DNA from: Halomonas qaidamensis
GTDB taxonomy: Bacteria > Pseudomonadota > Gammaproteobacteria > Pseudomonadales > Halomonadaceae
Assembly (NCBI RefSeq): GCF_025917315.1
Contig: NZ_CP080627.1
Coordinates: 2,232,001-2,296,000 of the forward strand
DNA length: 64,000 nucleotides
Reading direction: 5' to 3'
Position 1 is the first letter of the stretch. Each line of letters starts with the position of its first letter. This document shows positions 33,201 to 34,915 of this stretch, piece by piece. The notes beneath the pieces are model-generated. The model had not been told where the DNA came from. It ran no database searches and worked only from the letters and a program-made list of their open reading frames with translations. Made by a program: the position numbers and the translations under genes.

Positions 33201-33839
33201 GGCGCGTATTTATGTGTTTATGGCATGGAAGGCCCTGGTGGCTACCAGTTTGTCGGCCGCACGCTGCAGATGTGGAACCGCTACCGCACAACAGCACACT
33301 TTGAAAATCCTTGGCTTCTGCGCTTTTTTGACCAGCTGCGTTTTTATGAGGTCAGCCACGACGAGCTTGAACAAATCCGCCGCGACTTTCCCCACGGGCG
33401 TTTTGAGCTATCAGTTGAAACGACTCACTTCCGTTTAGCGGATTACCAAGCCGATATCGACAAAAACGCCGCTGACATTGAGGCTTTTCGCAGCAAACGC
33501 GAAGCCGCTTTCCAGGCAGAGATGGCCGATTGGCGCGCCAATGGGCAGTTCACCTTTGAAGACCAAACACCGCAAAGTGCCGAGGTAACCGCGTTAAATG
33601 ATAACGAGCTAGGCATAGAAAGCCCTGTCACCGGTAGCCTGTGGAAACTGCTTATCCAAGAGGGTGAGCAGGTCAGTGCTGGCCAAGCAGTGGCCCTGGT
33701 AGAATCTATGAAGATGGAAGTGGAGATCACCTCTCACTGTGCAGGCCGAGTGGTTAGGCTACCGCTAAGCGAAGGCGCTTCTGTTGCGCCTGGGCAGCCG
33801 CTGGTAGTGCTCACTGATAGCGAGGAGGCAAGCTCATGA
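30222..33839 (+). CDS. Biotin-dependent urea-carboxylase-family enzyme, probable guanidine carboxylase
   Basis: A 1205-residue single-chain biotin carboxylase that uses ATP and bicarbonate. Domains in order: biotin carboxylase (about 1-450, starting [17 protein letters not shown], with ATP-grasp glycine loop [10 protein letters not shown]), carboxyltransferase halves of the KipA/KipI type (about 455-1000), and C-terminal biotinyl domain with VESMKME, the biotinylated lysine being Lys1164. The substrate region reads [20 protein letters not shown] with Asp706; fungal urea carboxylases, as I recall, have Asn in the matching NFTGD position, a change linked to guanidine preference. The ATG at 30222 starts at the family N-terminus; 77 bases separate it from the previous gene. 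The riboswitch upstream supports guanidine over urea as substrate. Confidence 0.92.
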   Translation: [1205 protein letters not shown]

Positions 33840-34915
33840 GCCCGCTTCCCGCCGATCCGCGCCTAGCCGACTTCCAAACCATTCCCGTGATCGATATTGA
33901 CCCTTTACTGCATGGCAATACCGCCGCGCGTCGAGCCGTTGCCAACGCCCTTGGCCGCGCTGCGCGCGAGGTAGGCTTCTTTCAAATGGTTGGGCACGGT
34001 ATTGATGATTCGCTGCGTCATGGGCTGATCACACAAGCCAAGCGCTTCTTTGCCCAGTCAACAGACGCCAAGATGCAGCGCTATATAGGCCATTATCATC
34101 ACCATCGTGGCTATGTACCACCCGGTGAAGAGTCTCCTGACCCCACAAAACCCGACATGAAAGAAGCGTTTGACCTCGCCTTTGAGTTACCCGCAAACGA
34201 TCCCGACGTTGTGGCTGGCACCCCACTCCTTGGCCCTAATCCCTGGCCAGCGCTTGACGGTTTCCGAGCGCCAGTGGCCGCCTATTACGATGCCGTCTAC
34301 CAGGTGGGCCGCGCACTAATGGGCGGCTTTGCCCTGGCATTAGGGCTGGAAGAGCAGCAGCTGCTGCGCCATGTCACCAAACCGCCCAGCCAGCTGCGCC
34401 TGATTCACTACCCTTACAACCCTGATGCACAAGACGCCCAAGGCATTGGCGCGCATACCGATTACGAGTGCTTCACTCTGTTGCTACCCACGGCGCCAGG
34501 GCTGGAAGTGATGAACGGTGCTGGGGAGTGGATCGACGTGCCGTTTCGCGAGGATGCCTTAGTGGTGAATATTGGCGATATGCTGGAAATATGGAGCAAT
34601 GGAGAGTTTGTGGCAACGTCCCACCGGGTGCGCAAGGTAAAAGAAGAACGCTACTCGTTTCCGCTGTTTTTCGCCTGCGATTACCATACTGAGGTCGCGC
34701 CGCTACCTGCATTAGTCAAGCGCCATGGCCAGGCTAACTATGCGTCGCTAAAAGCAGGCGACCACCTTTACGCGCAAACCATCCAAACTTTCCGCTACCT
34801 GCGTGAGCGTCTAGCGAAAGGCGACATCACACTCCCAGAGGGCGCTCGTGAAGTCGGTAGCCTAGGCCAGCACGGCAAGCACAAAGAGCAGCAAAACGAG
34901 GTGCCAAAGCGATGA
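33836..34915 (+). CDS. 2-oxoglutarate/Fe(II)-dependent oxygenase, isopenicillin-N-synthase-like
   Basis: A 359-residue non-haem iron oxygenase. The N-terminal DIOX_N segment (IPVIDIDPLLHG, then GFFQMVGHGI near residues 43-54) is followed by the double-stranded beta-helix core with iron ligands His207 and Asp209 (HTDYECF) and His263 (TSHRV), and the 2-oxoglutarate-binding RxS motif at Arg272-Ser274 (RYS). All catalytic residues are present, so it should be active. It overlaps both neighbours by four bases and sits between the carboxylase and allophanate hydrolase. Known members of this superfamily hydroxylate arginine or homoarginine derivatives and release guanidine; a role in freeing guanidine from an alkylguanidine is a reasonable guess, not shown. 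Confidence 0.88.
   Translation: MSPLPADPRLADFQTIPVIDIDPLLHGNTAARRAVANALGRAAREVGFFQMVGHGIDDSLRHGLITQAKRFFAQSTDAKMQRYIGHYHHHRGYVPPGEESPDPTKPDMKEAFDLAFELPANDPDVVAGTPLLGPNPWPALDGFRAPVAAYYDAVYQVGRALMGGFALALGLEEQQLLRHVTKPPSQLRLIHYPYNPDAQDAQGIGAHTDYECFTLLLPTAPGLEVMNGAGEWIDVPFREDALVVNIGDMLEIWSNGEFVATSHRVRKVKEERYSFPLFFACDYHTEVAPLPALVKRHGQANYASLKAGDHLYAQTIQTFRYLRERLAKGDITLPEGAREVGSLGQHGKHKEQQNEVPKR

Follow-up and report, generated by a model that had tools for sequence, protein, structure and literature searches.

The 64,000-nucleotide stretch of the Halomonas qaidamensis genome analyzed here (contig NZ_CP080627.1, positions 2,232,001 to 2,296,000; hereafter the window) carries a guanidine degradation operon with an embedded oxygenase gene at 33836–34915. 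Orthology argues strongly that this gene is mgdH. Together with mgdL, it would encode a methylguanidine demethylase acting in two steps, whose product enters the guanidine carboxylase pathway encoded in this operon. The function of such an operon was published in 2025, and the finding itself is not new.

Sinn et al. (October 2025, PMC12508155) identified the oxygenase of Vreelandella boliviensis LC1 as the methylguanidine hydroxylase MgdH. The neighboring gene was identified as the N-(hydroxymethyl)guanidine lyase MgdL, with the catalytic residues D49/R51. According to the text of that paper, the two enzymes strip the methyl group from methylguanidine and allow the cell to use methylguanidine as a nitrogen source. 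The KM of MgdH for methylguanidine was 0.16 mM and its kcat was 19.6 s−1. N,N-dimethylguanidine was also a substrate, with a similar kcat, and in the substrate screen O2 was consumed only with these two compounds. Hydroxylation, hemiaminal release, the lyase step and the riboswitch ligands were all measured in V. boliviensis. The strain grew on methylguanidine, proteome data showed that the operon was induced, and its guanidine-II riboswitch bound both guanidine and methylguanidine. Similar operons were mentioned for other Vreelandella and for Salinisphaera. The natural source of methylguanidine was left open there, and abiotic production from creatinine was cited (PMC12508155).

The assayed genes were located at our locus L010 (V. 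boliviensis LC1), where the termini of mgdH and mgdL contain all four cloning-primer sequences of that paper. The window MgdH shared 85.8% identity with the assayed MgdH over 351 residues, and the window MgdL shared 69.1% identity with the assayed MgdL over 223 aligned positions. The remaining operon proteins were 86–96% identical to those of V. boliviensis, with 86% for the gca product. The Halomonas alkaliantarctica FS-N4 record matched a 21-kb piece of the window at 99.48% identity, and its MgdH (L002) was 99% identical to the window MgdH; the MgdH of the V. neptunia record L007 was 87% identical. In a 66-row tree, the FS-N4 MgdH, standing for the window, and the assayed MgdH fell into the same 14-row Vreelandella/Halomonas clade (support 100/99). 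The gene order, both riboswitch classes, D49/R51 and the Fe/2-oxoglutarate residues are alike in the window and V. boliviensis LC1. The window represents another strain of the group, and its proteins are known here from their sequences. The features of the operon are as follows.

25811..25947, + strand: aptamer of the guanidine-I riboswitch, located in the operon's 5′ leader (Rfam RF00442, 82.2 bits, gathering threshold 63, E = 4e-13)
26006..28773, + strand: ATP-binding cassette (ABC) importer, comprising substrate-binding protein (26006–27094), permease (27143–27982) and ATPase (27979–28773)
28770..29492, + strand: cgdA, carboxyguanidine deiminase subunit (TIGR03425, 293.5 bits, cut-off 205.95; DUF1989)
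29506..30144, + strand: cgdB, carboxyguanidine deiminase subunit (TIGR03424, 336.7 bits, cut-off 284.7)
30155..30199, + strand: guanidine-II (mini-ykkC) riboswitch directly before gca (Rfam RF01068, 40 bits, gathering threshold 32)
30222..33839, + strand: gca, guanidine carboxylase of the urea carboxylase family (TIGR02712, a model named urea carboxylase, 1798.7 bits, cut-off 1303.85)
33836..34915, + strand: mgdH, predicted methylguanidine hydroxylase, an Fe(II)/2-oxoglutarate oxygenase (Pfam domains, residues, identity to V. boliviensis MgdH)
34912..35643, + strand: mgdL, predicted N-(hydroxymethyl)guanidine lyase (identity to V. boliviensis MgdL, D49/R51)
35640..37460, + strand: atzF, allophanate hydrolase (TIGR02713, 718.5 bits, cut-off 511.05; Amidase, AH_C)

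The mgdH gene sits between gca and mgdL in an operon with both guanidine riboswitches (RF00442 and RF01068), and gca, cgdA, cgdB and atzF all score above their NCBIfam cut-offs. Adjacent genes share four-base ATGA overlaps at gca/mgdH (33836–33839), mgdH/mgdL (34912–34915) and mgdL/atzF (35640–35643). The guanidine-I aptamer reached 95.3 bits with R1, a riboswitch model built in this analysis from 21 sequences, the window copy among them. A pair of GGGACGACCC hairpins is readable in the guanidine-II riboswitch. The start of gca is most likely 30222, because the ATG at 30171 falls within the guanidine-II aptamer. The start of cgdB was placed at 29506 by alignment to relatives; the longest open reading frame (ORF) begins at 29416. 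The importer binding protein matched NCBIfam TIGR03427 (484.9 bits, cut-off 333.9), and the importer also matched Pfam BPD_transp_1 and ABC_tran.

The MgdH ORF (33836–34915, + strand) encodes 359 amino acids without an internal stop. Pfam annotated the DIOX_N domain (PF14226, 2.2e-30) and the 2OG-FeII_Oxy domain (PF03171, 2.2e-23). The HxD...H motif and the 2-oxoglutarate-binding RxS motif are intact (His207, Asp209, His263, Arg272 and Ser274). In a 34-sequence alignment that includes the window, H207, D209, H263 and R272 were invariant and S274 was at least 90% conserved. The predicted structure had a mean predicted local distance difference test score of 91.3, and the nearest solved folds included 6jyv and the ancestral ethylene-forming enzyme 9ovh. 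One match to the oxygenase was found in the window's genome. An earlier note on this DNA had described an intact 2-oxoglutarate oxygenase with these residues, with four-base overlaps to the carboxylase gene before it and to the gene after it, and both descriptions were borne out. Its proposal that the operon produces guanidine from an alkylguanidine and then degrades it agrees with the assayed V. boliviensis orthologue and is already in print (PMC12508155).

The lyase partner gene at 34912–35643, the closest companion of the oxygenase, had been overlooked in the earlier note. Its product matched no Pfam or NCBIfam family. It is a beta-barrel protein encoded next to mgdH, with D49 and R51 at exactly those numbered positions, and both residues were invariant in a 55-sequence alignment. 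The genes for S-(hydroxymethyl)glutathione dehydrogenase and S-formylglutathione hydrolase are adjacent elsewhere in the genome (C1:2841388–2843412), and both products scored above their NCBIfam cut-offs. This glutathione-dependent formaldehyde-detoxification pair is of the kind induced in V. boliviensis (PMC12508155).

Every step of the route proposed for the window's organism is modeled on the V. boliviensis orthologue. The putative substrates guanidine or methylguanidine would enter through the ABC importer. MgdH, with Fe(II), O2 and 2-oxoglutarate, would hydroxylate the methyl group of methylguanidine to give N-(hydroxymethyl)guanidine, CO2 and succinate. Acid-base catalysis by D49/R51 of MgdL would then cleave the hemiaminal, releasing guanidine and formaldehyde. 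Guanidine would be converted to CO2 and ammonia through Gca, CgdAB and AtzF, and formaldehyde would be cleared through the glutathione-dependent pair described above. Guanidine would be sensed by both riboswitches, and methylguanidine by the guanidine-II riboswitch.

Parts of this route resemble other known systems. All genes of the guanidine carboxylase pathway (Gca, CgdAB and AtzF) are present in the operon, which adds mgdH and mgdL upstream in the pathway. Ethylene-forming enzyme and the plant 2-ODD-C23 hydroxylases share the 2-oxoglutarate/Fe(II) chemistry that ends in guanidine release. These enzymes use arginine or homoarginine, whereas MgdH uses methylguanidine and a lyase speeds the split (PMC12508155). 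The peptidylglycine alpha-amidating system likewise pairs a hydroxylase with a dedicated lyase, peptidyl-alpha-hydroxyglycine lyase, but its hydroxylase is Cu-dependent and the lyases have no sequence homology (PMC12508155).

We surveyed 55 MgdH-related loci in public genomes. The ORFs were taken as stop-to-stop peptides and labeled with BLAST and hidden Markov models, and loci cut by contig ends were counted as lacking a gene. Greedy ORF calling in high-GC loci missed MgdH in 9 of 26, probably owing to shadow ORFs, and was not used. The loci came from Halomonadaceae, Salinisphaera, Hyphomicrobium, Zavarzinia, Jiella, Roseibium and Marinobacter, and also from Mycolicibacterium, Gordonia, Nocardia, Rhodococcus, Streptomyces and myxobacteria. 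MgdL was present in 51 of the 55 loci, each time with D49 and R51 (51/51); the four loci without it were L025, L026 and the distant L055 and L056. Thirty-three of 55 encoded Gca or CgdB. Model R1 was applied to 53 loci and detected the guanidine-I riboswitch in 30; 13 of those 30 had also fed the model, having passed Rfam's own threshold. Gca/CgdB and/or the guanidine-I riboswitch were found in 36 of 55 loci. The earlier note had stated that orthologues found mostly outside guanidine operons would refute its proposal, and this is not what the survey showed. The constant companion of MgdH is MgdL, not Gca. The MgdH–MgdL pair is also spread more widely than the genera named in the text of PMC12508155, extending to actinobacteria, Hyphomicrobium, Zavarzinia and myxobacteria. 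In Halomonadaceae the distribution of MgdH-like genes is patchy, with hits at E 1e-90 or better in 16 of 151 genomes. On plasmids, MgdH relatives of less than 60% identity were found in nine records, and the MgdL protein of locus L065 (described below) had no match.

Several loci of the survey have an unusual structure. Two Hyphomicrobium loci (L028 and L031) and one Zavarzinia locus (L034) have a LysR-type regulator gene ahead of the cluster, and a guanidine riboswitch was not found at these three loci. Zavarzinia L034, L035 and L036 carry two tandem mgdH copies, and the upstream copies form one clade (100/99). In L003 (Vreelandella glaciei, 11721–17892), approximately 6 kb of other DNA lies between mgdL and atzF. 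Several operon genes of L048 (Halomonas olivaria TYRC17) are in pieces in the assembly, for which sequencing errors seem likelier than decay. In L069, from a genome of the window's genus (G365), positions 3600–11060 hold a divergent MgdH-like (42%) and MgdL-like pair, accompanied by a PhyH-type dioxygenase, an agmatinase-family gene and a second ABC transporter. This pair may represent a sister system acting on a different substituted guanidine.

Some observations weigh against the methylguanidine assignment. The activity of the window MgdH and MgdL is predicted here from orthology, and the window MgdL is just 69% identical to the assayed one. Seventeen of the 55 loci have MgdL and neither Gca/CgdB nor a detected guanidine-I riboswitch (two of them, L051 and L053, are short contigs outside the riboswitch scan), and therefore the oxygenase is not everywhere tied to guanidine degradation. 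Seven loci with Halomonadaceae MgdH relatives of 51–57% identity (L071–L077) lack MgdL and Gca in the fetched stretch, so similarity alone does not fix the substrate. Six of these (L071–L075 and L077) form a separate clade (support 100/100).

A role in hydroxylating arginine, homoarginine or agmatine to free guanidine, in the manner of plant 2-ODD-C23 or ethylene-forming enzyme, is very unlikely for the oxygenase. The proteins belong to the same superfamily, and 9ovh is 39% identical to MgdH. However, the adjacent MgdL works on the methylguanidine product, and methylguanidine, in addition to guanidine, is a ligand of the guanidine-II riboswitch in the orthologous operon (PMC12508155). The likeness to arginine and homoarginine oxygenases raised in the earlier note stands as no more than a chemical analogy, because only methylguanidine and N,N-dimethylguanidine triggered O2 consumption by the orthologue (PMC12508155). 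Still less probable is a different methylated guanidine, for example N,N-dimethylguanidine, as the true substrate in the window strain. The V. boliviensis enzyme turns this compound over at a similar kcat, but it supported just residual growth, the decay of its hydroxylated forms was not sped up by MgdL, and it was not bound by the guanidine-II riboswitch (PMC12508155). The least credible alternative is an unrelated oxygenase trapped in the operon, either a tailoring enzyme or an isopenicillin N synthase. Database names read “isopenicillin N synthase family dioxygenase”, and isopenicillin N synthases were among the fold matches at 26–28% identity. Against this, MgdH–MgdL pairing spans several classes and phyla, the operon has two riboswitches, and assays of the orthologue are in print (PMC12508155). 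A methylguanidine hydroxylase accordingly remains our assignment for the gene.

The part worth following is the exchange of the partner of MgdL. A profile search found MgdL in 7 of 369 genomes of the window's class, the window's own among them, and four of these seven (L065–L068) had no MgdH in the fetched stretch. In the order of genome G107, which is probably Burkholderiales (same class as the window, judged from named MgdL relatives), MgdL matched in 27 of 349 genomes. Neighborhoods were fetched for 20 of these 27, and MgdH was absent from all 20. A membrane FA_desaturase-family gene lay near MgdL on the same contig in 11 of the 20; the eleventh is L120, whose desaturase-like gene lies just beyond the fetched stretch and was seen in L137. 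L065 (G107, one of the 27) and L068 share this arrangement, which gives 13 desaturase–MgdL clusters with D49/R51 (L065, L068, L112, L114–L119, L120/L137 and L122–L124).

These clusters have a recurrent gene content. Among the 12 that were labeled (L120/L137 was left out), creatininase was found in 10, an isochorismatase-family protein in 10, an EamA transporter in 11 and a metallo-beta-lactamase-fold protein in 9. The L065 creatininase exceeded its NCBIfam equivalog cut-off (351.8 vs. 235 bits). The L065 isochorismatase-family enzyme is closest to biuret hydrolase and its metallo-hydrolase is closest to N-acyl homoserine lactone lactonases. Ten of the 13 clusters are preceded on the same strand by a guanidine-I riboswitch, the L118 copy being itself cut by the contig end. 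In L114, L117 and L120, no guanidine-I riboswitch was found in the 1.1–2.2 kb remaining between the desaturase-like gene and the contig end. For the L065 desaturase-like protein, the match to the arginine hydroxylase model GntB was weak (27.9 bits vs. cut-off 380) and fell short of those to CrtW (36.3) and DesA (34.4); all three are far under their cut-offs.

Two further contigs carry these elements. Contig C28 of genome G768 (L134) has two guanidine-I riboswitches back to back, at 7775–7882 (− strand) and 8282–8387 (+ strand). One heads the desaturase-like/MgdL cluster, and the other, in the opposite direction, lies approximately 5 kb ahead of CgdB. The metagenome contig L037 encodes MgdH, MgdL, desaturase-like and lactonase-like proteins and has guanidine-I riboswitches at 1013–1116 and 5244–5346.

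The desaturase-like protein and MgdL also co-occur across genomes. The former was found (E 1e-50 or better, at any genomic position) in 25 of the 349 genomes; 16 of these 25 also had an MgdL match, compared with 1.9 expected by chance. Genome G628 (22.9 bits, partial) was left out of the motif count, leaving 26 MgdL genomes with a usable row, and D49/R51 were intact in 17. The desaturase-like protein was present in 15 of these 17 vs. 1 of the 9 lacking the complete motif (Fisher p = 0.0002; Fisher and hypergeometric values here ignore genome relatedness). Among 20 D49/R51 MgdL genomes (the 17 and three others of the class), 19 had CgdB and one had an MgdH-like protein (E 1e-60 or better, 42% identity). 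Several changes of partner type are seen along the MgdL tree, a count inflated by cut contigs labeled as having neither partner.

We consider it possible, just short of probable, that a second, unrelated diiron-type hydroxylase converts methylguanidine, creatinine or creatine to a guanidino hemiaminal, which is then split by MgdL. Creatinine or methylguanidine nitrogen would then pass through guanidine into the carboxylase pathway. That this hydroxylase was recruited to the same lyase chemistry is suggested by the gene neighborhood. Other observations weaken this proposal. L113 and L125 keep D49/R51 in genomes without a desaturase-like gene, and L066 and L067 keep both residues with no desaturase-like gene in the labeled stretch. 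L121, L126, L127 and L128 lack one or both residues. Nine of the 25 genomes with the desaturase-like protein have no MgdL match. In G856, approximately 1.4 kb separates the gene for the MgdH-like protein (42%) from a further FA_desaturase-like copy. L110 and L111 are short contigs, and L109 has a riboswitch with lactonase-like and biuret-hydrolase-like genes; in the genomes of all three, the desaturase-like gene is on another contig.

Among the matches listed in the open-access literature (preprints outside scope), no paper on a desaturase–MgdL link was found. The word “desaturase” does not occur in the article text of the MgdH paper, supplements being outside that scope (PMC12508155). Papers with both “guanidine riboswitch” and “desaturase” concerned, as far as their matched text goes, the arginine desaturase NapI or were unrelated (among PMC12186494, PMC2211319, PMC11410670, PMC11018352, PMC12930504 and PMC10535843).

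This Vreelandella/Halomonas genome, too, appears to encode the published methylguanidine demethylase, which assigns a probable function to the gene at 34912–35643, otherwise left without annotation. Hyphomicrobium are methylotrophs. The occurrence of MgdH–MgdL pairs in Hyphomicrobium, actinobacteria and myxobacteria points to methylated guanidines as a common source of nitrogen and possibly of carbon. The MgdL clusters with a diiron-type partner and creatininase would, if the proposal is true, point to a biological route from creatinine to guanidine.
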